NCBI RefSeq assembly: GCF_022808935.1
Contig: NZ_JAKZFR010000001.1
Span: 868,001-932,000 of the forward strand
Source of the DNA: Geothrix sp. SG200
GTDB lineage: Bacteria; Acidobacteriota; Holophagae; Holophagales; Holophagaceae
DNA length: 64,000 nt
Direction of reading: 5' to 3'
Every line of letters starts with the position of its first letter. Within the stretch, counting starts at the first letter, position 1. The position numbers were made by a program, and so were the translations under genes. Shown piece after piece: positions 40,669 through 54,206 of this stretch. The notes under the pieces were generated by a model that was given only the letters and a program-made list of their open reading frames with translations, did not search any database and was not told the DNA's origin.

Positions 40669-41877
40669 TCAGGAGTGAATGAATTTGGGCCGGTAAGGCT
40701 CGCCGACCCAGTAGATCAGCTCCAGCATGTCATCCACGTCCCAGAGCAGCACCTCGGCGCGGGCGCCCGGGTGGAGGTGGCCCAGGTCGTCGTGGCGGAG
40801 GCTGCGGGCGGGGTGCAGCGTCATGGCCGTGAAGGCCTCCTCGAAGGTCATGCGGAGCTGGAGGCAGCCCAGGCGCAGGATGGTGAGGGGGTCCAGGCAG
40901 GGGCAGGAGCCGGGGTTGAAGTCCGTGGCCAGGGCCACGCGGCAGCCGGCCTCGATCATCTTCCGGGCCGGGGCCCAGTCCCGCATGCCGAGGAACAGCG
41001 TGGTGCCTGGCAGCAGGACGGGCGTGACGTCTGCGGCGGCCATGGCCTTCATGCCCGCCTCGCTGCAGAACATGAGGTGGTCGGCGCTGGCTGCCCCCAA
41101 CTCGGCCGCCAGCTCGGCGCCGCCGGTCCAGGAGAGCTCGTCCGCATGGACACGGGGGATCAGGCCCAGGCGTTTGCCGGCCTCGAGGATGCGGCGGCCC
41201 TGATCGGCGGTGTAGACGCCCGTCTCCACGAACACGTCGCAGAAGCGCGCCACGCTGGGGTGGCGGCGCACCAGCTCCGGCAGCCATTCCTCGGCCACGG
41301 CGCGGGCGTTGGCCTCGGCATCGCCGGCGAATTCGGGCGCCAGATCATGGGCGGGCAGCAGGGTGACGTCGAAGCTCCAGCCCCGGCGCCGCAGCTCCTC
41401 GTAGGCCGCGGTGAGACGCGACTCTGCCTCCAGTTCCAGGCCGTAGCCGGTCTTGCACTCGAGGTGGACGACACCGCGCTCGCGGAAGGCCTTCAGCCGC
41501 TCCTCGCCGGAGACCACCAGCTCATCGATCGTGGCGCCCCGCGTGGCGCGGACGGTCTCCCGGATGCCGCCGCCCTCCGCCGCGATCTGCTGGTAGCTGA
41601 CGCCGTGGAGGCGCCGGTTGAACTCGCCCGAGCGGTTTCCGCCGAAGAGAAGATGGGTGTGCGGATCCGCGAAGCCCGGCGTGGCCCAGGCCCCGCCGCC
41701 ATCCACCTTGGGCGCGCCCTGCCATTCCGCCGGGAGATCCGCCGCCCGGCCGAGCCAGGCCACCCGGCCGCCGTCCAGGGCCAGGGCCGCGTCGGGGATG
41801 CGATCCACCACCCAGGCCCGAGCGGGATCGGGGGTCAGCAGGCCCTGGAGGTTGACGAGCACGCGGCGGTCCGACAT
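40669..41877 (-). CDS. hutI: Imidazolonepropionase HutI
   Basis: Hydrolyses 4-imidazolone-5-propionate to N-formimino-glutamate in histidine breakdown. Metal-binding FADPHTHLLFGGNRS is present, then LECKTGYGLELEAE, RVHADELSW, and the late ATDFNPGSCPCLDPLTI block, all characteristic of HutI. ATG 41877 gives 402 residues, the normal length. No hutU, hutH or hutG gene is next to it, so the rest of the pathway is encoded elsewhere. It is divergent from the macroglobulin operon. Confidence 0.95.
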   Translation of the reverse strand: MSDRRVLVNLQGLLTPDPARAWVVDRIPDAALALDGGRVAWLGRAADLPAEWQGAPKVDGGGAWATPGFADPHTHLLFGGNRSGEFNRRLHGVSYQQIAAEGGGIRETVRATRGATIDELVVSGEERLKAFRERGVVHLECKTGYGLELEAESRLTAAYEELRRRGWSFDVTLLPAHDLAPEFAGDAEANARAVAEEWLPELVRRHPSVARFCDVFVETGVYTADQGRRILEAGKRLGLIPRVHADELSWTGGAELAAELGAASADHLMFCSEAGMKAMAAADVTPVLLPGTTLFLGMRDWAPARKMIEAGCRVALATDFNPGSCPCLDPLTILRLGCLQLRMTFEEAFTAMTLHPARSLRHDDLGHLHPGARAEVLLWDVDDMLELIYWVGEPYRPKFIHS

Positions 41878-41964: not shown

Positions 41965-44142
41965 GTGCGGGGCAAGGGGCGTGGCATGAGGCGACTCGCG
42001 CAGAGTCTGTGTGTGCTTGGAACGATCCTGGCTCCCGCGATGGCCCAGGAAGCCGTGCCAGCCTGGGCCAGAGAGTACGCCGCGCACTGGTCCACCTACC
42101 GTACGGATGCCCGGGGGCAGCGGAACTGGCAGGCCGTTCCCTTCACCCAGATGACCCAGGGCGAGCAGTGGGAGCAGTTCATGGAGCATCTCAAGCAGGG
42201 CGGGAAGGCCCGGCGCGCGGCGCTGGCCTTCCTCGGCCAGCGGACGCCCTCGGTCTGGGCTGCGGAGGGGCTGAAAACCGGCGATCCGGAAGTCGCTCTC
42301 GCCCTGCACCGCCTCGGCTTCCGCCAATCCGGAGCGGATCCGTTCGCCTACCTCGGGCCTCCGGACCGCGTGGATCGCCCTTGGACCCATGGGCTGGGCC
42401 TGCACCTGGACAAGGCCGGCTGGCGGTTCCAGTGGATCCCCAGCCCGGCGCTCTTCACCCAGGGCGGGAACGCGGTGTTGCCGAATGGGCTGGGGCGGGC
42501 CGCCCAGCCTGGTGTGCTCATCCACCTGAAGCAGCTGCGCCCCGGCCTCGAGAAGCTGGTGGCTCTCGGCGGCGGAACAGGCCCCGACGGGCAGGGCATT
42601 TTGCCGGCGCTGGCCCAGGGCAGCCGCCTGGGCTTTACGGCACGCCACCTGGAGCCCTGGCTGAAGAAGGCCTCGCCTGTCCTGGAACCTCTGGCGAACC
42701 GGGAGGCCTGGGTGCTGCACTACGGCGCCGCGCGCCCCGACGCGGATGAGATCCAGGGAACGCTGGTCTTCATCCCCGGGGACCTGCCGGCGCGCACCCA
42801 GCTGACAATGGCCCTGCTGCGCCTGAACCCATCCAGCTCCGGTGCGCGGTCCCGCGTCGTGACATGGACAGGCCCTGGCGCATCGACGGAAGTCCAGCAA
42901 CTGCGCGGATCAGGCGGCGTCTTTCACCTGATCCAGATGGCCGAGGGCACCTGGATCAGCGACCGTGAGGCCCCCCTTCGCGCTCTGCTGTTCCCCGGCC
43001 CCGTGGCCACCCTGGGGGAACGCCCGGAATGGGCCCGCGTGGCCCTGTCGGCCATGGCGCCGGACACGGAGCTCTCCTTCTGGCTGGCGCCGCGCGTCGG
43101 CGCGGATGCGGCCTTCGAGGTCCAGGCCCTCCGCCGTCGGCAGGTGAACGCGCAGCAGGGCACCTGGCCCAACCCCTTCGTGGCCAAGGCTGCGCCACGC
43201 ACCGGCGCTCTGGCGGTTGCCCTGGGGGCCGGGCCCACCGAAAAGCTGGTGGAGGCGATCCTCCGCGTGGACGATGCCGCGGAACTCCGGATGCCGCAGA
43301 TGCCCGCGTTCGCGGACGGCGGCAGGGCCCTGAGCCCGGATCAGATGAAGGCCTATCAGGCGGCGCTCACGGCCGCCCAGGAGCGCCAGCGCCAGCGGAC
43401 GGCCCTGCGCCAGGACGCCCAGGTCCTCCAGGCCTGCCTCGACCTCCGGGGGGCGGCGTTCTTCTGGAACGGCTGGGTGACGGCGCCGCCGCTGACGGGG
43501 GCCGAAAAAGCGGCCCTGACCGAGCTGGCCAAGCTGCGGCGCGAGGACCCCTGGCGGGCCATGCGGCTCCAGCAGGATGGGAAGGTGACCGCCTTCGGGG
43601 GCTTCGGCGAGCCCGGCATGGCCCCGAGCCTGGCTCTGGCCCTACCGGTGCATCCCGCCCGGCGGACGCAGGCCGAGAACCTCCTGAAGAAGGTGCTGCC
43701 GCGGCTCTTCAAGGGCCAGAACCAGAAGCAGGCGCTCGGTTCGGCGGAGCTGCACCGCATCCTCACGGCCCAGGCCTTCCGGCCCGCCTGGACCCTGGTG
43801 GCCGACACGCTGGTGCTGGGCACGGACGAGGGCGCTGTGAAGGCCGTGGCCGCAGGGCTCCAGGGCCAGGCGCCGACGCTGGCCGACAGCGATTTCCGGG
43901 CCTGGGCCCGCATGGAAGTGGATGGCGCCCGGGCCTCCTCAGAGCTGGAGAACCTGCTGCTGGCCTTCCTCCGCAGCCGCAGCGGCGGAGGATGGTGGAT
44001 CGGCGAGGCTTCGAGCCAGGATGATGCGGCCGCGGAGCTGGCGGCCAGCCTCGGGCCCTTCCTGGGCGCCCTGAAGGCCCTGGGGCCCGTGCGCATCGAG
44101 TGGAACTGGACCGCGGCGGGCCTGGAGGGGCGCCCGCGATGA
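41965..44142 (+). CDS. DUF2138/YfaA-like exported protein, first gene of macroglobulin operon
   Basis: A 725-residue exported protein with a signal peptide ([18 protein letters not shown]). GTG 41965 has GGAGGT four bases upstream; ATG 41986 is an alternative in the same signal peptide. The protein lacks recognised catalytic motifs. Segments such as [20 protein letters not shown] and [20 protein letters not shown], and its place directly before a DUF1175 gene and a macroglobulin gene, fit the DUF2138 family (YfaA in E. coli, a Mag-complex component in Pseudomonas). The family call depends mainly on gene order. It overlaps the next gene by ATGA. Confidence 0.6.
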
Positions 44143-45089
44143 CGCCAGTCCGGTATCTGTCCGCGGTCCTGGCCGCGGGGGCCGTGGCCTTTTTGGCCCT
44201 GGCTCCGGTGCGCCACCAGGCGTTCCTGGAAGCAGATCCGTCCAACCCCATCGCAAGGATCCGCCTGGACAGTCGGTCCCTGCTGGGCCTGCGCCGGCCG
44301 GCCTGGGGGGCCGGGGTGGACGGGGCGGCGGCCTGGGGCGACAGCCGGGACGGCTTCTTCCTCCGCGCGACGGCTCCTGCCCAGGCCGTCATCCACGCCT
44401 GGCCTGGATTCCGACAGTCTCTGTCCATTCCAAGGGCCGCTGGCGGATCCGCTGCTCTCCTGGATGAAGGTGATCGTGAAGCCTTCCGGGATTGGTTCGT
44501 GGCGCTCCTGGAGCAGCAGGTGGAGGCGCCCAGCCCCGCCTGGGAGCCCGCCCAGCGGGACTGCGCCGGCCTGCTGCGCTTCGCCTTCCGGGAGGCCCTG
44601 GCGGCCCACACCGCGGGCTGGCGGGCCCGGGTGGCCTTCACGGACGGCGCTCCCGGACAGGATCCCTCGCCGGCCTTCGCGGCTGCGTGGCGTCAGGGAT
44701 TCCCCACACCGGAAGGGCCCCGTCCCTTCGCCAAGGGCGCCTTCCTCCGGCAACTGTCCTGCGTGCCGCTGGGGCGCGATCTGGCCCAGGCGAAGCCGGG
44801 AGACCTGCTCTTTTTCGCCCGGGGCGGGGCCCACGCCCAGCCCGACCACGCCATGGCCTTCGTACGGCCTGATGTGGATGGCGCGCCCATGCTGCTCTAC
44901 CACACGGGTCCCGAAGGCAGCGGCGCCTCCCGGCAGCCCGGCGAGGTCCGCCGGGCTCGCCTCGACGACCTGATGCACCATCCCGATCCCGACTTCCGTC
45001 CCCTGCCCGAGAACCCCGCGTTCCTGGGCCTCTTCCGCTGGCGGGTGCTGGCGGACGCGGCCTCCGAACCTCTCCCTCCCAGGTCCTGA
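44139..45089 (+). CDS. DUF1175 (YfaT-like) protein with papain-like C/H pair
   Basis: A 316-residue exported protein with an N-terminal signal or anchor segment ([18 protein letters not shown]). It matches DUF1175 in several blocks: [20 protein letters not shown], then [23 protein letters not shown], and the ending [20 protein letters not shown]. Cys142 (in DCAG) and His237 (in DHAM) are placed as in NlpC/P60-like cysteine peptidases or amidases. An enzymatic role in the cell envelope is thus likely but unproven. The ATG overlaps the previous stop and the next gene begins 1 nt after its own stop. Confidence 0.8.
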
Positions 45090-45090
45090 C

Positions 45091-48000
45091 ATGCGCTGGT
45101 TCCGTCCGCTCATCACCCTGCTGCTGCCCGCGATCCTGCTGGTGCCCACCATGGGCACGGCCCAGAAGCGCGGCGCCGAGGCCCCCTGGCGGGAGGGCGG
45201 ATGGACCGGCGCCTTCGCCAACCTGAGGCCCACCCTGCCCGGGAAACCTGGCCAGCTGGAGGCGGCCGGGCCCATCCCGGCCGAGGCGCGCATCCGCATC
45301 TACCGCGTGGAGGATCCCGAATCCCTTTTGAAGAAGGTGCTGGCGGATCGGGGCCGGGCCGCGGCCGAAGGCGGCCGGGGCGTCCAGGATCCCCTCGACC
45401 TGCTGCGAGAGGCGGTCCTGTGGGGCGGCCGGCGCGCCTTCGTCACGGTCCACCGCACGGCCACCCAGGCCCTGCGGGACGCCGCCAAGCAGGCCGACCG
45501 CCTGCGCTCGGCCCGCACCTCGCCGGACCGGATCCGCGAAGGTGTTGCCCTGCCCATCGAAGGCCAACCCGGGATCACCTTCGTCACCGAACTCGTGCCC
45601 CGCATCAGCGAGGAACTCGCCGGGAAGAAGGGAAATCCGGACGACGAGTCCGGAGACGATGGCTTCCTCAGCCGGGTGGACTTGCCAGCCCAGGCTGCCG
45701 GCCTGTACCTGGTGGAAGTGCTGCGCGGCAGCGACGCGGCCTATGTGCCGTGGCTCGTCACGGACCTGGCCCTGCTGTCGGAACAGGATGGCTCGCGGAT
45801 TCGCGTGCGGGCGGTCGATGCGCGGGACGGCTCTGCCAAGGCCGGCGTCGCCGGCCAAATCCTCGAGGGTCCGAAGGCCCAGCCCCTGGCCTTCGACGGT
45901 TCGGGAACGGCCGAGGCCGCGGCCACGCCCGGCGTGCGGCGGGTGGTGGTGGCCCGCAGCGGGGCGAGCTTCGCCCTGCTGGCCAGCGAGGGGCAGGGCT
46001 CCGCGGCCGTGCGCCAGCGCCTCTACGCCTTCACCGAGCGGCCCCTCTACCGGCCGGGCCAGGAGGTCTTCGCCAAGGCCATCCTCCGCCGGGTGGAGGA
46101 AGGCGAGAACCGCGTGGCGGGCGGCGCCGCGGACCTCCCCTTCACGGTGCTCGATCCTGAGGACACGAAGGTGACCGAGGGCCATGCCAAGCTGCTGAAC
46201 GCGGAGACGGGCACCTACGCCGCCCAGTTCACCCTCCCTGGCGCGGGCCGCCTGGGTCTCTACCGCCTCGTCTTCCAGGGGCCGCAGGGGCCGGGCCAGG
46301 CGGAGTTCAAGGTTGAGCAGTTCGTGAAGCCCGCCTTCGAGGTCAAGGTCACGGCGGCGAAGGCCAAGGTGGGCCTGGGCGACACGCTGGCGTTCCACGC
46401 CAACGCCAGGTATTTCTACGGCGCCGCCGTGCGCGGCGCCAAGGCGGACTGGTTCCTCTACAAGGTGGTGCCGCCGAAGTCCCGCTGGATCTGGGACGAC
46501 GAGGACGCCGGCCCAGCACCCGAGCTCATGGAGAGCGGCCAGCTGGAGCTGGACGAGGAGGGCCAGGCGGATCTGCCCACGTTCAAGGCCGAGAGCGACG
46601 GCCTCTGGCGGATGGTGGTGAAGGTGGCCGACGCATCGGGTCAGCGGAACAGCGGGCAGGCCCAGGTGCGGGCCGCCGCCGGCGATCTGGTACTGATGAT
46701 CGCCTCGGACCGCCAGGTGGCCCTGCCCGGGAAGCCCTTCCAGGTCACCGCCAGGGCCCTGGATCTGGACGGCAAGGAGGTGCCGGGCGTGGCCATCTCC
46801 CTTCGCGCCGCCCGCATCGTGGCGCAGAAGGACACCGCGTACTGGTGGTCCAGGCCCAACGCCCTGAAGCCCGGCGAGACCGTGGCTTCCGCCCCGGGCC
46901 CCCAGGCCATGCTGAGCATCCCGGAAGGCGGCGCCTTCCTGCTGGTGGCCGAGGCCCGCGATTCGAAGGGCCGCCCCGTGACCGCCCAGCGCCAGATCAC
47001 CGTGGCGGCCGAGGGCACGCCGCTGCCCGCGGTGCCGGATCTCCGCGCGGCGGCGGACAAGCCCGAGTACCAGCCGGGCGACACGGCCCGGATCCTCGTG
47101 CAGCTGCCCCGTCCCAAGCTGACGCTGCACTGGGCCCTGGAGCATGAGGACCTTGGCCGGCACCAGAGCCGGATCGTCCAGGGCACCACCGCCCTGGTCG
47201 AGATCCCCGTCACGGCCGCCATGCAGCCCAACGCCTGGGCCGTCTTCGAGATCGTGAGCGAAGGCCGTCGCCAGATGGTCGAGGTGCCCCTTCGTGTGCC
47301 GAAGCGGGACCGCCGCCTCTCGGTGGCCGTTACCACGGACAAGGAGCGCTACCAGCCCGGCCAGCCCATGAAGGTGTCCGTGGAAGTGAAGGACGCGGCC
47401 GGGAAGCCCGCCGCCGCGGACCTCAGCGTGGGGGTGGTGGACGAGGCCATCTACGCCTTGAGCCAGGAGCTGAACCCCGATCCCGTGCGCTTCTTCCATC
47501 CCACGCGGCGTCACGGCGTGCTGCGGTCGGGCTCCACGGACTGGAGCTTCCACGACCTGCTGCGCCGCCAGCGCCCCGTGTGGAGCCTCAAGCAGACGAA
47601 GCGGGGCGACTTCAAGGCCGATGACGACGAGAAGGTGCGTCAGAACTTCAAGGACACGGCCCACTGGGCGCCATTCGTGGCTGCGGGGCGGGACGGGAAG
47701 GCGAGCGTGGACCTCGTGCTGCCGGACAACCTCACGGCCTGGCGGGCCACGGCCACGGCGATCACCGCCGACACCAAGGTGGGCGTGGGACGGGCCTCGA
47801 AGCCCGCCTCCAAGCCCCTGCAGGTGGCCCTCACGCTGCCGCGGACGCTGAGCGTGGGCGAGGAGGCCCGGGCCATCGCCCTGGTGCGGAACCTCTCGGG
47901 CCAGCCCATCCAGGGCCGGGTCCGCCTGGAGGTGCAGAACGGCCGCTTCTCCGGAACGCCCGAAGGCACCTTCACCCTCCAGGACCAGGGCGAGTACCGC

Positions 48001-49848
48001 TTCGCCCTGCCGCTGTTCTCGGACAAGACCGGCCCGCTGACGGTCACGGCCCGGGTGGAGGGCGGCGGCCTGAAGGACGCCGAGCGGCAGAAGGTCGCGG
48101 TGCTGGACCAGCTGGTGCCGGCCTCCCTCTCAGGCTCCATCCTGCTGGACGGCGGCAGCCAGACGGTCACGATCCCGGCGCCTCCCTCGGCGAAGGGCGA
48201 GGCGGCCCTGGTGCTCACGCCCGTGGGCAACCTGGAGCACCTGGCCGCGCCCTCGCTGCCCTACCTCATCGGCTATCCCTACGGCTGCGTGGAGCAGACC
48301 CTGTCCAGCTTCGTGCCCAACCTGCTGGTGGCCGACCTGGTGAAACAGGGCGCCATGCCGGACCTGGACTGGAAGCAGCTCACGAACCTGGACCGCAACA
48401 TCCGGGACGGCGTGTTCAAGGTCTACGGCTACCAGCAGCCCAACGGCGGCTGGGGCTGGTACGCGCCCAAGGACTTCGGCCTGGATGCCAACCCCCACAC
48501 CACCGGCTATGCCATCCAGAGCTTCGCCACCATGAAGCGTCTGGGCTATGCCGTGGATGAGGGCGTCTACCGCCGGGGCCGCCTCGCCGCCATGAACCTC
48601 TTCCAGCAGGTGGCGCGGCAGGCGGATCAGGCCACGGCTACCCAGCGCCAGCGGAACAGCCACGGGCAGACCGCCGATCCCCAGGCGGATGCGGCCTTCC
48701 TGCTGGCCTCCCTGGCCCAAACCGGCGAGCCCATCGCGGGGCTGGTGGACAGCGCGGCCGACAAGGTGCTCCAAGGCCGGTGGTCCGGCGACCATGTGCT
48801 GGCCCTGGTGGCCCTGGCCGCCGCCCAGGCGAAGCATCCCAAGGCGGCGGCCCTGGCCGAGCGCCTGGAACATCGCGCCGTGGTGAAGGGCGGCCTGGCC
48901 CGGTGGGAGGGCCGGCGCGACGTCTGGTGGGGCTATGCCTCCGGCGACGTGGTGCCCACGGTGATGGCGCTGAAGGCCCTCTGCCTGGTGCGTCCGCAGT
49001 CGCCGCTGATCCGCCAGGGCGAGACGTTCCTGGCCTCGGAATACCGCGGCTATGGCTGGTATTCCACCTGGAGCACGGGCCAGATCGTGGACCTGCTGCC
49101 CTACCTGCTGAAGACCCGCAAGCTGGACTGGGGAGCGCTCGCGATCCAGGCCTCGGTGCAGGGGGGCCCCACCTGGGACTTCAAGGAGCGGCCGCAGGCC
49201 CGTCGCTGGAATGCCCGGGAAGCCCGGGTTGGCACCTTCGCCATGGCCGAGCCGAAGCCCGTCACGGTCACGGCCAGCGGCAGGGGACTGCTCGTGTGGA
49301 CCTACGCCTACCAGGTGCCCGGCAGCGCCGCGGGCGTGCCCAAGGGCGACGCGTCCACGGCGCTGCGCATGTCCGTGACCCGGGACCTCTGGCGCCTGAG
49401 GACGCCCCAGGAGACCGGCAATGCCAGTCAGGGCTGGATCCGCCAGCCCTGGACCGGGACGATGAAGGCCGGCGAGGAGGCATGGATGCAGGTGTCCTTC
49501 CGCACGGACCGCGACGCGGACTACGTGATGCTGGAGGTGCCCATCCCCGGCGGCCTCAACCCCACCGTGAAGCTCGAGGGCTTCGTGCTCGAAGGGAAGT
49601 CCTTCACCGAGGAAGGAGCCTCGGACCGCTGGGTGAAGCCGCGGATCGAGGTGCATTCCGACAAGGTGACGTTCCTGTTCCCCCACACCTGGAGCTGGGA
49701 TACGCAGACCGTCCGGATCCTCCTGCGGGCGGGCATGGCGGGCCACTACCGGCTCAGGCCCGCCAAGCTGAGCCTCATGTCGAACGAGGGGCAGTGGGTC
49801 ACCAGCGACGGGCTGGACCTGAAGGTGGTGGATGGAGGTGCGCGATGA
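45091..49848 (+). CDS. Bacterial alpha-2-macroglobulin (YfaS/MagD type) with CxEQ thioester motif
   Basis: A 1585-residue exported protein with an N-terminal signal peptide (LITLLLPAILLVPTMGTA). It is a multi-domain macroglobulin. MG-type strands carry RPLYRPGQEVFAKAILR, PEYQPGDTARILVQL and RYQPGQPMKVSVEVKD. An A2M core block is DNLTAWRATATAITADTKVG, and an alpha-toroid thioester domain follows. The thioester motif YPYGCVEQT has C1066-V-E-Q1069, able to form the reactive internal bond that traps proteases. It ends with a receptor-binding-like beta domain. Such proteins sit in the periplasm and protect the envelope. Gene order matches yfaS/magD operons. The stop overlaps the next start. Confidence 0.95.
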   Translation: MRWFRPLITLLLPAILLVPTMGTAQKRGAEAPWREGGWTGAFANLRPTLPGKPGQLEAAGPIPAEARIRIYRVEDPESLLKKVLADRGRAAAEGGRGVQDPLDLLREAVLWGGRRAFVTVHRTATQALRDAAKQADRLRSARTSPDRIREGVALPIEGQPGITFVTELVPRISEELAGKKGNPDDESGDDGFLSRVDLPAQAAGLYLVEVLRGSDAAYVPWLVTDLALLSEQDGSRIRVRAVDARDGSAKAGVAGQILEGPKAQPLAFDGSGTAEAAATPGVRRVVVARSGASFALLASEGQGSAAVRQRLYAFTERPLYRPGQEVFAKAILRRVEEGENRVAGGAADLPFTVLDPEDTKVTEGHAKLLNAETGTYAAQFTLPGAGRLGLYRLVFQGPQGPGQAEFKVEQFVKPAFEVKVTAAKAKVGLGDTLAFHANARYFYGAAVRGAKADWFLYKVVPPKSRWIWDDEDAGPAPELMESGQLELDEEGQADLPTFKAESDGLWRMVVKVADASGQRNSGQAQVRAAAGDLVLMIASDRQVALPGKPFQVTARALDLDGKEVPGVAISLRAARIVAQKDTAYWWSRPNALKPGETVASAPGPQAMLSIPEGGAFLLVAEARDSKGRPVTAQRQITVAAEGTPLPAVPDLRAAADKPEYQPGDTARILVQLPRPKLTLHWALEHEDLGRHQSRIVQGTTALVEIPVTAAMQPNAWAVFEIVSEGRRQMVEVPLRVPKRDRRLSVAVTTDKERYQPGQPMKVSVEVKDAAGKPAAADLSVGVVDEAIYALSQELNPDPVRFFHPTRRHGVLRSGSTDWSFHDLLRRQRPVWSLKQTKRGDFKADDDEKVRQNFKDTAHWAPFVAAGRDGKASVDLVLPDNLTAWRATATAITADTKVGVGRASKPASKPLQVALTLPRTLSVGEEARAIALVRNLSGQPIQGRVRLEVQNGRFSGTPEGTFTLQDQGEYRFALPLFSDKTGPLTVTARVEGGGLKDAERQKVAVLDQLVPASLSGSILLDGGSQTVTIPAPPSAKGEAALVLTPVGNLEHLAAPSLPYLIGYPYGCVEQTLSSFVPNLLVADLVKQGAMPDLDWKQLTNLDRNIRDGVFKVYGYQQPNGGWGWYAPKDFGLDANPHTTGYAIQSFATMKRLGYAVDEGVYRRGRLAAMNLFQQVARQADQATATQRQRNSHGQTADPQADAAFLLASLAQTGEPIAGLVDSAADKVLQGRWSGDHVLALVALAAAQAKHPKAAALAERLEHRAVVKGGLARWEGRRDVWWGYASGDVVPTVMALKALCLVRPQSPLIRQGETFLASEYRGYGWYSTWSTGQIVDLLPYLLKTRKLDWGALAIQASVQGGPTWDFKERPQARRWNAREARVGTFAMAEPKPVTVTASGRGLLVWTYAYQVPGSAAGVPKGDASTALRMSVTRDLWRLRTPQETGNASQGWIRQPWTGTMKAGEEAWMQVSFRTDRDADYVMLEVPIPGGLNPTVKLEGFVLEGKSFTEEGASDRWVKPRIEVHSDKVTFLFPHTWSWDTQTVRILLRAGMAGHYRLRPAKLSLMSNEGQWVTSDGLDLKVVDGGAR

Positions 49849-50702
49849 AGGCCGGGCTGGTTCTCTCCCTGCTGCTGTCGGCCACCTTCCTCGGGGCGCA
49901 GAAACCGCCCCCGGCCAAAGCGCCCGCCGCGGCCTACGTGCCGGACCTGAAGCTCTGGCGCATGGACGTGTCGCCGGCTCTGGGCGGCTGGTCCGGCGAC
50001 CGCGCCGTGGCGCTGAAGGTGAAGCTGGTGGATCCCAAGGATCCGAACCCGCCCAAGGATGAACCCCAGCCGCGGTACTTCGACTACGAGGAGGATGGTG
50101 GCTATGAGCCGCCGGCCGAGGACACGCGCACCGCCGATCAGCTGCGCAAAGAGCGGCTGGCGCGGGAGGCGGAGGCCGCCCGCAACGCCTGGCGGTCGCG
50201 CACCCTGCTGGTGTGGCTCAATGGCGCCTCGATGCGGTGGCAGGCCAGCGTAGGCACCTCCTTGAACATGGAACTCACAGCCCAGAATGGCGAGAACCGG
50301 CTGGAGATCCTGGAGCCGGATTCGGGCCTGAAAGTGGTCCGGAGCTGGTGGGTGTCCACCACCCGCACACGGCTTCGGGTGGTAAGCCTCCAGGTCAACG
50401 ATGAGTACGCCAGCGGCAGCCTCCAGGTGCAGGAGCCGGACGGGGCCCTGGCGCAGGGTGGGCGCCGCACGCCTTCGGGCGGCATGCTGCGCTGGTCCGG
50501 CGAGTACACCCATGACACGCCGCCACCGGGCACCTACGCGCTGAAGTGGACCGGGGGCTGGCGGGGAGGCAAGCCTGCCCGCATCCACGTGGAGGCCGTG
50601 CTCGACGGCGGCACGGACCAGGAGCGCCGCTGGACCTGGGAACGCCTGATCCTGCCGGGTTCCGGCCCGGTCATGCTGGGGACCTTCGATGTGGAACCCT
50701 AG
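49845..50702 (+). CDS. DUF2135 (YfaP-like) exported protein
   Basis: A 285-residue exported protein with a clear signal peptide (AGLVLSLLLSATFLGA). A charged middle helix (TADQLRKERLAREAEAARNA) is followed by a beta domain (TLLVWLNGASMRWQA; LNMELTAQNGENRLEILEPD; GTYALKWTGGW). This and its place after the macroglobulin gene fit DUF2135 of YfaP. The function is unknown; a partner of the macroglobulin is likely. GGAGGT lies before ATG 49845, which overlaps the macroglobulin stop. It overlaps the next gene by 14 nt. Confidence 0.7.
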   Translation: MKAGLVLSLLLSATFLGAQKPPPAKAPAAAYVPDLKLWRMDVSPALGGWSGDRAVALKVKLVDPKDPNPPKDEPQPRYFDYEEDGGYEPPAEDTRTADQLRKERLAREAEAARNAWRSRTLLVWLNGASMRWQASVGTSLNMELTAQNGENRLEILEPDSGLKVVRSWWVSTTRTRLRVVSLQVNDEYASGSLQVQEPDGALAQGGRRTPSGGMLRWSGEYTHDTPPPGTYALKWTGGWRGGKPARIHVEAVLDGGTDQERRWTWERLILPGSGPVMLGTFDVEP

Positions 50703-51519
50703 GTTGATCGGCCTCCTGCTCGCATCCTGCCTGCTGGCTGCCCAGCCGGCGCCTGAGGCCGGGCCCACGCCCTCGGTGGTGGCCGCGGCCCGGGCACCCA
50801 TCCTCCGACCCGGCGAAGGCTTCGCCATCACCCTGGGGGATGGCGAGGTGCATGCCTATGGCGAGGCGCGCAAGGAAGCTCCCATGGGCAGCCTCGCCAA
50901 GCTGGTCTGGATGAAGCTGGAAGGGAGCGAGTGGTCCGCCTCCGGCGTCCAGTACCGGTGCAAGGGCGCCGATGGGCCCTTCGTGTGCTGGAATCGCGAA
51001 GGTCATGGCCGCGTGGATCTGGCACTCGCCCTCCAGGAGAGCTGCAACCTCGCCTTCCTGGCCTGGATCGCGGGTTCCCGTGAACGCTGGGTGCAGGACT
51101 ACGGCCCGGATGCGGCCAGGGCCCGGCTCGAGGAGGCCTTCGAGCCCTTCCTCGGGCGCCGGATGCCCACGGGCGAGGGGCTGCCGCCGCTGACTGCAGC
51201 CTGGGTGGGCGACGGCGACCTGCTGCGCACCAGCCCCGAAGCCTTCCTGCGCTGGCTCATGGATCCGAGCCAGGCGGAGGTCGTCACCTTCGGCAAGCGC
51301 TTCCTGGCGGGCTTCTGGGTGGAGGTGAAGGACCTGTTCGGCAAAGAGGACTGGTGGTTCAAGACCGGCACGGGCCCGGTGCCCGGCGATCCGTCCGCCA
51401 CCAGCGCCTGGGTAGCGGGCGGCCGTCGATCGGTCCTTGTGGTGCTCCACCTGCCGCGGGGGCGGGGCAAGCAGGAGGGCATGACGCGCATCCGGGAGAT
51501 CCTGGGGCTGAAGCCTTGA
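50689..51519 (+). CDS. DUF2300-like exported protein with penicillin-binding-type motifs
   Basis: A 276-residue exported protein with a hydrophobic leader (LIGLLLASCLLAAQ). It carries a full serine penicillin-recognising triad in correct order and spacing: S68-L-A-K71 (MGSLAKLVW), S118-C-N120 (ESCNLAFL), and K225-T-G227 (FKTGTG). The fold is therefore probably that of class D beta-lactamases and transpeptidases. It corresponds in position to the first part of YfaQ. Activity on peptidoglycan or beta-lactams is inference. It begins inside the end of the DUF2135 gene and ends over the next start. Confidence 0.7.
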   Translation: MWNPRLIGLLLASCLLAAQPAPEAGPTPSVVAAARAPILRPGEGFAITLGDGEVHAYGEARKEAPMGSLAKLVWMKLEGSEWSASGVQYRCKGADGPFVCWNREGHGRVDLALALQESCNLAFLAWIAGSRERWVQDYGPDAARARLEEAFEPFLGRRMPTGEGLPPLTAAWVGDGDLLRTSPEAFLRWLMDPSQAEVVTFGKRFLAGFWVEVKDLFGKEDWWFKTGTGPVPGDPSATSAWVAGGRRSVLVVLHLPRGRGKQEGMTRIREILGLKP

Positions 51520-52994
51520 TCCTGCTGGTTGCCCCGGCACCCGCTCCGCCGTTCACGCCACCGGTGATCGAAGGAGACGGCGCCAATCAGAGCGCGCTGG
51601 AGGACTCGCTGCGGATGGCCTTCGCATCCACGGCGGGGTTCGGGCCCTGGCCACCTGGGCCCTGGCGGGTCCGACTCCACCCGGATTCGATCGCCTTCGA
51701 GAAGGCCACGGGCGCGCCCCCGGGGCGCAGTGGCCAGTGGCTGGGAGACACCCTTCATCTTCGCCCCTGGGAGCAGCTGCGGCGGCGGGACCTCGGCGCC
51801 ATCCTGCGCCACGAACTGGCCCACCGGCGCCTTCGGGACGCGCACCTCCGGCGCTGGGTGGAGGAAGCGCGGTGCTTGTGGGCGGAAGGTCATGCCAAAC
51901 CGCCCAAGACCTGGCCCACCGCCCCGCCGACAGGTGTCCAGGCGCGCCTGGACCGGGCCCTGGCGGCCGGCGCCACCCGCGAGCAGGCCTGGGCCTATCG
52001 CTGGCTGCGGGCCTGGCTGAACGGCGGTCCCCTGCCGCCCACGCCAGGCCAGACCAGTGCCACTGTGGAACGCTGGGTCAAGGAAGCTCCCGTCCTGGCC
52101 GAGACCACCGTCACGGTGGTCTGGCCCGCGGAGCGCCTGCGGGGCCCCATGGTCGTGAATGGACATCGCCTGTCGCATCGCCTCGGGAGGGTCTGGCGCT
52201 TCCAGGGGACCATCCGGTTCCAGGCTGGCTTTCCGATCGCGACGCTTCGGGGCACGGTGCAGGTCCGGGCCCAGCGCCACGGCTGGCGCCTGGCCTGGAC
52301 GACCTCCAGGACGGCCTGGATCGCCGCGGCCACCGAGGGGGAGCTCGGCGCCGATTCGCCCTTCGAGGCCCGGCGCGCCCTGGCCGCGGTGCTGGATCGG
52401 TGGTTGGAGGGCCATCCCCGGCAGCACCCGGAGGGCACCCTCTGTCCACTGACCCATTGCGCGGTGGTGCGAGGCGGGGCCATGCCGGGTACGACCCGGG
52501 CCGTAGAGGCGGCTCCGGTCCTGAACCTGGATTCCCGCTGGGCCTTCTTCACGGGCTCCGCCGGCGGGCATCCGCTGAGCCCCCGGGCGGTGTGGGGCGA
52601 CGGGCCCGCCGAGGCCGGCGCCGCTCCGGAGGTGCCGGGAGATCGCTGGGTGGCCTGGGAACGCAGGCTGGATGCCGCTCAGGTCGCGGTCCTGAAGCGG
52701 GATGTGGCCGTCGGCCTGAGGCCGGGGCAGCTCGGGATGATGCTCGGGGCCTCCGGGCCCTACGCGGTGGAGGCGCTGCGCCTCGCCGCAGGACGGCGGT
52801 ACGGCTGGACCACGTGGCCCAGCAATGTCTGCGAGGCCGAGATGCTACCGGACGGTTCCCTCCGGCTGAAGGGGCGTGGCTGGGGCCACAACGTGGGCCT
52901 CTGCCTCAGCACCGCGCGGTTCCGCGCGACTCAGGGCGCCACGGCGGAACAGATCCTGGCGGAGGCCTTTCCGCCTTCGTGGCGGACGCCATGA
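51516..52994 (+). CDS. Zincin-like plus SpoIID-like exported protein (YfaQ C-terminal counterpart)
   Basis: A 492-residue protein starting at TTG 51516, overlapping the previous stop (TTGA). The short N-terminus LILLVAPAPAPPF may be a weak signal. Residues 99-103 read HELAH with a later RRWVEEARCLWAEG. This is the HExxH plus W-x-x-E arrangement of peptidase-MA-like zinc metallopeptidases (H99, H103, E117 as candidate ligands). The C-terminal third is SpoIID/LytB-like, ending in GRGWGHNVGLCLSTARFRAT. SpoIID domains are peptidoglycan lytic transglycosylases. The combination suggests an envelope protease or wall hydrolase. The next gene starts in its stop codon. Confidence 0.6.
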   Translation: MILLVAPAPAPPFTPPVIEGDGANQSALEDSLRMAFASTAGFGPWPPGPWRVRLHPDSIAFEKATGAPPGRSGQWLGDTLHLRPWEQLRRRDLGAILRHELAHRRLRDAHLRRWVEEARCLWAEGHAKPPKTWPTAPPTGVQARLDRALAAGATREQAWAYRWLRAWLNGGPLPPTPGQTSATVERWVKEAPVLAETTVTVVWPAERLRGPMVVNGHRLSHRLGRVWRFQGTIRFQAGFPIATLRGTVQVRAQRHGWRLAWTTSRTAWIAAATEGELGADSPFEARRALAAVLDRWLEGHPRQHPEGTLCPLTHCAVVRGGAMPGTTRAVEAAPVLNLDSRWAFFTGSAGGHPLSPRAVWGDGPAEAGAAPEVPGDRWVAWERRLDAAQVAVLKRDVAVGLRPGQLGMMLGASGPYAVEALRLAAGRRYGWTTWPSNVCEAEMLPDGSLRLKGRGWGHNVGLCLSTARFRATQGATAEQILAEAFPPSWRTP

Positions 52995-53242
52995 CCTGGT
53001 GGGTGTACCTGCTCCGATGTGGCGACGGCACCCTCTACTGCGGCATCGCGCTCGATGTGGCGGCGAGGTTGAAGCAGCACCAGGAGGGCCGCGGTGCAAA
53101 GTACACCCGCGGCCGGGGTCCCCTGGAGCTGGCCTACTGCGAGGCCTGCGCCTCGAAGGCCGAGGCGCTGCGACGGGAGCGGGAAGTCAAGCGCCTGAGG
53201 CGCGGCGCCAAGGAGGCGCTGATCGCTACAGGAAGACCGTGA
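52991..53242 (+). CDS. GIY-YIG nuclease-superfamily protein (UPF0213 type)
   Basis: An 83-residue stand-alone GIY-YIG domain: WVYLLRCGDGTLYCGIALDV, then ARLKQHQEGRGAKYTRGRGP and the ending EREVKRLRRGAKEALI. The two aromatic/glycine strands and the H..G.G.KYT block match the UPF0213 group of small proteins. Their nuclease activity is mostly unproven. ATG 52991 overlaps the stop of the SpoIID-like gene. Its position at the end of the envelope operon is probably not functional. Confidence 0.88.
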   Translation: MTWWVYLLRCGDGTLYCGIALDVAARLKQHQEGRGAKYTRGRGPLELAYCEACASKAEALRREREVKRLRRGAKEALIATGRP

Positions 53243-54068
53243 TCGCGATGCGAATGCCCGGGTAGCGGGGATTGACCAGGTAGTAGCCGTCGCCGTAGTA
53301 GTCGATGTACACGCGATCGGCCAGGTACCAGTCATCCACCCAGAACTCCGGCCAGGGATCCACGATGAGGAACCAGTAGCCCCCGCAGCGGAACCGGGGG
53401 TAGCCCTGGTAGATCACCGGGCGGCTGCCGATGAGGAAGGGATGGCTGACTCCGAATCGGGAGACGAACTGCGGCTCGGGAATGCGGTAACCGCCATATC
53501 CTCCGCGCTGGGCCCAGGTCCGGTGGTCACGCTCCCAGTGCTGGGCGCGATGCTCACGCCAGCTGGACCGGGCCGGCCAGGCGTCGCGGCGCCAGGTGTC
53601 CCGGGACTGCCAGGCGCGGGCGGTTTCGGCGGCGCGCGGAGAGGGGCGGACCTCCCGACCCTGCGGGCGGGAGGCTTCGCGGCGATCGGAGGGGGACCTC
53701 ATGGCGCCATGAGCCTCGCGCCGGTCCAAGCGTCCTTCAGGGCGTCCTTCAGAGCGCCCTTCGGGTCGGGCGAAGCGCTCCGGCCGCTCCTGCCGCTCGG
53801 GCCGGGCCTGGCGTTCGGGTCCGGGCATGGGGCGGGCCCGCTCCATATCCCTCGAGGGGCGGGGTGCCTGGGGCGCGGCCCGCATGGGCGAGGGCTGCTC
53901 CCGGCCGCGCTCGGGGCTCCGCTCAGGGCCTCGTTCGGGGGCGCGGCCCTCGCGCGGGCGATCAGGCCGGGAGCCTTCCTCCCGGCGGTCGTGCTGGGCC
54001 GAGGCCGGCATGGCCAGGACTGCCAGAAGCGATAGAACCAAAGTGCTGGACGTTCGATGGCGCGTCAT
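53226..54068 (-). CDS. Exported Arg/Pro/Glu-rich protein with aromatic C-terminal domain
   Basis: A 280-residue protein with a signal peptide (LVLSLLAVLAMPASAQ). Residues about 25-175 are low-complexity, dominated by RP, ER and PE repeats (RPERQERPERFARPEGR). The last 90 residues are a Trp/Tyr/Gly-rich beta domain ending RYPGIRIAITVFL, with YYGDGYYLVNPRYPG, resembling small exported domains widespread in Acidobacteria and others. Function is unknown. ATG 54068 has GGAGG upstream. The 3' end overlaps the GIY-YIG gene convergently by 17 nt. Confidence 0.7.
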   Translation of the reverse strand: MTRHRTSSTLVLSLLAVLAMPASAQHDRREEGSRPDRPREGRAPERGPERSPERGREQPSPMRAAPQAPRPSRDMERARPMPGPERQARPERQERPERFARPEGRSEGRPEGRLDRREAHGAMRSPSDRREASRPQGREVRPSPRAAETARAWQSRDTWRRDAWPARSSWREHRAQHWERDHRTWAQRGGYGGYRIPEPQFVSRFGVSHPFLIGSRPVIYQGYPRFRCGGYWFLIVDPWPEFWVDDWYLADRVYIDYYGDGYYLVNPRYPGIRIAITVFL

Positions 54069-54206
54069 GGGCTCCTCCTTTCCACGTCCTCGATGGAGGC
54101 ACTGGATAAGATGCTGGAAAAGCAGGATCAGTGCCAGGCCATGCTGGTCCAATCTCCGAGTCGGAGCGCCCAGGCCTGTTGGGAAACGGTTTCCGCGTGG
54201 CCGGAA

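Follow-up and report, generated by a model that had tools for sequence, protein, structure and literature searches.

Bacterial macroglobulins have been divided in recent papers into Type I, which carries a thioester, and Type II, which does not, and the mechanism of Type II was raised as a question (PMC5764988, PMC12663445). In Pseudomonas aeruginosa, MagD, the macroglobulin of the magABCDEF genes, was reported to trap a protease and to form a multi-protein complex in which it binds MagA, MagB and MagF (PMC5764988), and it protects the cells against VgrG3 and Tae1, peptidoglycan-targeting effectors of the type VI secretion system (T6SS) (PMC12663445). The E. coli genes are ordered yfaA-yfaT-yfaS-yfaQ-yfaP; the thioester motif, CxEQ, is reported absent in MagD and is missing from YfaS, which is a pseudogene in K-12. 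PMC3328433 (2012), citing a 2004 survey, dates knowledge of this operon class to that survey and describes it as lacking CxEQ "in many species", a wording that leaves room for earlier sightings of members with a thioester. The Type I protein YfhM of E. coli, paired with PbpC, has its thioester shielded by two tyrosines in a YPY motif (PMC4498604). Here a six-gene operon (genes 1 to 6, Table 1) is described from Geothrix sp. SG200, an acidobacterium of soil and sediment, in a stretch of 64,000 nucleotides (positions 868,001 to 932,000 of contig NZ_JAKZFR010000001.1) that is called the window below. This operon is probably a variant of the YfaATSQP/Mag system with intact chemistry, in which a periplasmic covalent trap would be coupled to wall enzymes.

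The macroglobulin itself, gene 3, contains the MG2, A2M_BRD (bait region), A2M, TED and bMG10 domains, all above the Pfam cut-offs, and matches alpha-2-macroglobulin (A2M), CD109 and YfhM in the PDB. Its CVEQ is intact at residues 1066-1069 and is accompanied by two shielding tyrosines in a YPY equivalent to that of YfhM. Gene 3 thus falls outside the "no CxEQ" definition of Type II and has the CxEQ and shielding tyrosines of Type I; the adjacent pbpC that also characterizes the YfhM type is not there, as the neighbours are genes 2 and 4 and gene 5 (276 aa) is not PbpC, and gene 2 lies directly upstream at a distance of 1 nt. Gene 2 belongs to DUF1175 (PF06672, 5.1e-44; NLPC_P60 at 0.02 in Pfam), with a predicted N-terminal membrane anchor and an NlpC/P60-like set of conserved residues, C142, H237 and H255. 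This Cys-His-His set is invariant over three phyla in alignment A2, and one Geothrix copy has Asp in place of the second His.

The thioester motif was then counted in 99 distinct A2Ms that are linked to DUF1175 and whose TED could be read; they were sampled by their similarity to DUF1175 of Meiothermus, and this limited the share of Pseudomonadota. CxEQ was found in 93 of them, including 77/77 from Acidobacteriota, 5/5 from Deinococcota, 4/4 from Spirochaetota, 1/1 from Myxococcota and 6/12 from Pseudomonadota, and nearly all copies from the first four phyla keep the YPY shield. The six copies that lack CxEQ come from P. alcaligenes and Enterobacteriaceae; in the P. alcaligenes copy the site is PYGGVEQT, with Cys replaced by Gly, and its tree neighbour from P. 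ullengensis retains CVEQ. A tree of 63 A2Ms, built by a quick method and with long-branch warnings, placed 49 DUF1175-linked sequences on one side (support 99) and YfhM with others opposite; gene 3 falls in the linked group, which is thereby set off from YfhM and from the majority of the unlinked A2Ms. Since the tree separates the linked A2Ms from YfhM and CxEQ is nearly universal among them, the missing thioester of "Type II" is most simply explained as a secondary and repeated loss, to judge from these sequences. Two unlinked long-branch A2Ms with CxEQ (L214, L216) were also seen among the linked group; they may have been left over from an operon, or long branches may have misplaced them.

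Pfam assigned no family above cut-off to genes 1, 4, 5 and 6 in a search of the window proteins; genes 4, 5 and 6 were placed by other comparisons, as DUF2135, the YfaQ type and SpoIID. The assignment of gene 4 to DUF2135 in a first-pass annotation of this DNA found its support in profile-profile comparison with YfaP only (hhalign probability 96.7, E 3.7e-10), other families giving no signal; a spirochaete open reading frame (ORF) serves as a bridge, matched by YfaP (1e-26) and by gene 4 (7e-7). Gene 5 had been called penicillin-recognising and gene 6 a zincin/SpoIID-like protein, and both calls stood up to NCBIfam, motifs, profiles and fold matching. Gene 5 matches a PBP2 NCBIfam model (4e-5), aligns with YfaQ residues 38-114 (hhalign E 1e-6; wrong pairs gave no signal) and has SxxK, SxN and KTG motifs in order as S68LAK, S118CN and K225TGT. 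Gene 6 has an N-terminal gluzincin part, H99ELAH with E116/E117, followed by a SpoIID part with GWGHNVGLC; H99, E100, H103, E116 and E117 are invariant, and the SpoIID model TIGR02669 scores 2.9e-4, under its curated cut-off. In its AlphaFold model (predicted local distance difference test, pLDDT, 62), VIA-align related residues 13-172 to M1/M61 zincins at a moderate Z of up to 7.8 and residues 194-492 weakly to SpoIID (5i1t, Z 5.3), and Foldseek alone returned no significant match for the model.

Genes 5 and 6 together appear to correspond to YfaQ/MagE, split in two and with zincin and SpoIID swapped. This is argued by a bridge protein in L091, matched by gene 6 (2e-23) and by YfaQ (1e-4); by SpoIID in E. 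coli-type YfaQ itself (1e-5); by a Blastocatellia protein that unites a PF00905 transpeptidase (4e-42), SpoIID (2e-21) and an HExxH module; and by a sister genus, in which genes 5 and 6 are a single ORF. The direct alignment of gene 6 with the SpoIID part of YfaQ is collinear but weak (0.0036). The fused Blastocatellia proteins (e.g. L128) likewise lie near DUF1175 and a thioester A2M and show SxxK-SCN-KTGT, SpoIID and HExxH, but in one protein and in the order SxxK-SpoIID-zincin, whereas Geothrix has two proteins with the zincin before SpoIID. Other arrangements were also seen: a zincin-SxxK-SpoIID protein in L191, and YfaQ-type proteins of Acidobacteriota whose zincin module is a separate ORF (L145:17196-19963, L150:16377-19433). 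In uncultured Pseudomonadota, DUF2135 and DUF1175 are fused in one protein (L191:9038-10597, also L195, L198 and L199). The gene 5-gene 6 and DUF2135-DUF1175 fusions tie parts of the operon together. An improbable alternative makes genes 5 and 6 processing factors of the macroglobulin, for instance with the gluzincin cutting it, rather than wall enzymes. Deletion of magE, identified as the YfaQ-type gene from its position and from the Pseudomonas loci examined, was reported to change the amount and processing of MagD (PMC5764988), but this effect may be indirect, and SxxK/SxN/KTG and SpoIID are wall-enzyme signatures conserved with the operon.

Gene 1 could not be assigned in the same way. It has an N-terminal hydrophobic segment and is conserved in the genus and family, and has so far been seen only in the window's own family. 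The first-pass annotation had called it YfaA-like (DUF2138), and the profile searches did not bear this out: Pfam gave no match, and hhalign to YfaA gave a probability of about 1. Against about 1,800 decoys, the YfaA hidden Markov model ranked the top-scoring copies of gene 1, at E 0.17 and 0.62, marginally above all decoys, the reverse search for this relation was negative, and the AlphaFold model of gene 1 (pLDDT 54) was too poor for a structure search. Gene 1 lies in the position of yfaA/magB, its homology to YfaA being unconfirmed by sequence.

The order of the six genes is identical in 18/18 Geothrix contigs that span the operon, far beyond chance, which upheld the expectation of a conserved order; conservation extends over the genus and, in part, to other phyla. 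The order had also been equated with an E. coli "yfaA-T-S-P-Q", which proved wrong, as E. coli has yfaA-T-S-Q-P. The Geothrix order is instead matched by Spirochaetota loci, T-S-P-Q1-Q2, and the parallel drawn with the Pseudomonas mag operon agrees with Pseudomonas loci that read yfaP-yfaA-yfaT-A2M-yfaQ-yfaP, as does the MagD complex with the report cited above; the Mag letters were mapped through loci of Pseudomonas species other than P. aeruginosa, namely P. citronellolis, P. alcaligenes and P. ullengensis. In Deinococcota, DUF1175 and A2M are accompanied by one small gene, DUF1570-like in one case. DUF1175 was found in 55/396 Acidobacteriota genomes searched, and also in Deinococcota, Spirochaetota, Myxococcota and others, so that the emphasis on an operon outside Proteobacteria was correct in itself, but the system is widespread.

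Compared with magABCDEF, the Geothrix locus likewise has a bait-region A2M preceded by DUF1175, with DUF2135-type and YfaQ-type neighbours in a compact co-directional operon. It differs in its thioester motif, in a MagE/YfaQ counterpart made of two genes with SxxK/SxN/KTG intact, in one DUF2135 where mag has two, and in a gene 1 that is not recognisably MagB. No VipB-family match for a T6SS sheath was found in the source genome, in contrast to the Pseudomonas system, and the idea that the operon serves against self-retaliation, as it does there, was therefore dropped. E. coli yfa shares the DUF1175, A2M, YfaQ-type and DUF2135 proteins, but its YfaQ is a single protein with SLWK and with SCG/KTW replacing SxN/KTG. 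The E. coli YfhM-PbpC pair (PMC4498604) has in common CxEQ, the YPY shield and the pairing of an A2M with a penicillin-binding-type enzyme, whereas YfhM lies on a separate A2M branch, PbpC is different and larger, and DUF1175 is absent.

The patchy presence of the operon within Geothrix ties its parts together further. The 23/47 Geothrix genomes with DUF1175 are exactly those with A2M, and genes 1-4 are absent together from the remaining 24. Gene 5 is still at the site in 22 of these 24 (one has a broken fragment, one none), and three also retain gene 6; at the emptied sites some 950 bp separate the left flank from the GIY-YIG gene, and gene 5 is the sole gene in that interval. All 25 operon-linked copies of gene 5, the window's and two from sister genera included, have SLAK, SCN and K[T/S]GT intact, and all 22 orphan copies have at least one of SxxK/SxN/KTG changed, 16 having lost the serine and 4 the lysine. 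On the flank-gene tree the operon state must have changed about 8 times, and well-supported branches force at least three of these changes; the gene 5 tree calls for 4, so the events are fewer than the genomes; loss is favoured over gain because another genus has the operon next to the same flank. The ratio of nonsynonymous to synonymous substitution rates (dN/dS) of orphan gene 5 is 0.11-0.24, against 0.07-0.16 for operon-linked copies, indicating purifying selection that is somewhat relaxed. These orphans (L227-L231, L262-L278), their SxxK centre mostly dead, persist under that selection between both flanks. An ordinary Type I A2M beside unrelated genes would share the thioester motif, but it would hardly group with DUF1175-linked A2Ms rather than YfhM, keep its neighbours in order throughout the genus and to some extent in other phyla, show all-or-none occurrence of DUF1175 and A2M, and lose genes 1-4 together at emptied sites. 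This explanation, very improbable, was rejected on the tree and the co-occurrence.

From the gene content and order, the thioester motif with its tyrosines, the catalytic motifs, the joint loss of genes 1-4 and the decay of gene 5, a mechanism is proposed in which the Geothrix proteins would be exported, form a complex, capture proteases and repair the wall. Gene 3 would be a covalent trap located in the periplasm: an invading protease would cut its bait region, exposing the thioester, which would then bond to that protease. Anchoring and stabilising gene 3 would fall to genes 1, 2 and 4, as MagA, MagB and MagF do for MagD, while genes 2 (NlpC/P60-like), 5 (transpeptidase/carboxypeptidase-like) and 6 (SpoIID plus gluzincin) may act as wall enzymes that trim or mend peptidoglycan at an envelope breach. 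The envelope machine imagined in the first-pass annotation is sustained in its domains, as the domain tests yielded all four components, namely the trap, the amidase-like protein with Cys and His, the SxxK enzyme and the metallo/SpoIID protein; it is not sustained in its E. coli order, its YfaA homology or its statement that the role is essentially unknown, given the protease trapping and effector protection already reported for MagD. The annotation lacked the thioester motif, the split of YfaQ and the absence of the operon from 24/47 Geothrix genomes.

A less likely alternative is a machine primarily for peptidoglycan repair or remodelling, in which the macroglobulin would sense damage or act as a scaffold and its thioester would capture wall hydrolases or wall amines, not proteases. 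It draws on four wall-enzyme-type domains carried by three of the six genes and on the decay of gene 5 motifs after loss of genes 1-4; the retained Pfam bait-region domain and thioester pocket fit protease capture instead, as does the protease reported trapped by MagD (PMC5764988). Several points weigh against the covalent protease trap. The signal peptide of gene 6 appears poor in Geothrix, and no relation was detected between gene 1 and MagB/YfaA, the key stabiliser in Pseudomonas. The activities of the Geothrix proteins are predicted, the system being known here from its genes. In many Pseudomonadota the operon persists although its macroglobulin has lost the thioester, so not every function requires that bond; half of the Geothrix species have no operon, which is thus not essential; and the purifying selection on orphan gene 5 implies some role for it outside the complex too.

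The locus is compact (Table 1). The six same-strand ORFs overlap by 4, 4, 14 and 4 nt, with a single gap of 1 nt between genes 2 and 3, and their coordinates agree with the coupling described earlier, as Pfam agrees with the DUF1175 and alpha-2-macroglobulin calls for genes 2 and 3. The signal peptides or anchors proposed for all six are plausible in genes 1-5 and weak in gene 6 among the Geothrix copies. Gene 7 is coupled too, by a 4-nt overlap with gene 6, yet it is a resident flank, kept at the site with or without the operon. Downstream of it, an ORF at 53229-54152 on the minus strand has no Pfam family.

Table 1. Features of the operon and its flanks (window positions)
Feature	Coordinates	Strand	Description
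Left flank, HutI-like amidohydrolase	40672..41877	-	site marker
Gene 1	41965..44142	+	725 aa, predicted exported, family not recognised, yfaA/magB position
Gene 2	44139..45089	+	316 aa, DUF1175 (YfaT/MagC), PF06672 match
Gene 3	45091..49848	+	1585 aa, alpha-2-macroglobulin, YfaS/MagD position, bait region and TED
Thioester motif C1066-V-E-Q1069 in gene 3	48286..48297	+	within GYPYGCVEQT
Gene 4	49845..50702	+	285 aa, divergent DUF2135 (YfaP; MagA and MagF by position)
Gene 5	50689..51519	+	276 aa, predicted exported penicillin-binding-type SxxK protein, putative YfaQ/MagE N-terminal part
Gene 6	51516..52994	+	492 aa, gluzincin then SpoIID, putative rest of YfaQ/MagE, swapped order
Gene 7, GIY-YIG	52991..53242	+	83 aa, PF01541 1.5e-17

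Outside Pseudomonadota, members of this operon class as a rule have the thioester motif, and it was lost within Pseudomonadota, which suggests that the well-studied E. coli and Pseudomonas versions are worn-down descendants. A tentative extension, held with rather little confidence, is that the ancestral Mag-type system was a thioester-armed response to wall damage, in which the macroglobulin would covalently capture invading wall hydrolases or mark damaged wall and license a dedicated transpeptidase-SpoIID-metalloprotease enzyme; what has been studied in E. coli and P. aeruginosa would then be partly disarmed. The modules of YfaQ/MagE can now be assigned as transpeptidase-like, SpoIID and gluzincin, and Geothrix offers a natural experiment that ties the catalytic motifs of gene 5 to the rest of the operon. 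As far as the literature searched shows, the phylum-wide thioester motif, this reading of the YfaQ/MagE modules and the dependence of intact gene 5 motifs on presence of the operon are new, and cultured environmental Geothrix provides a place to study the intact system.

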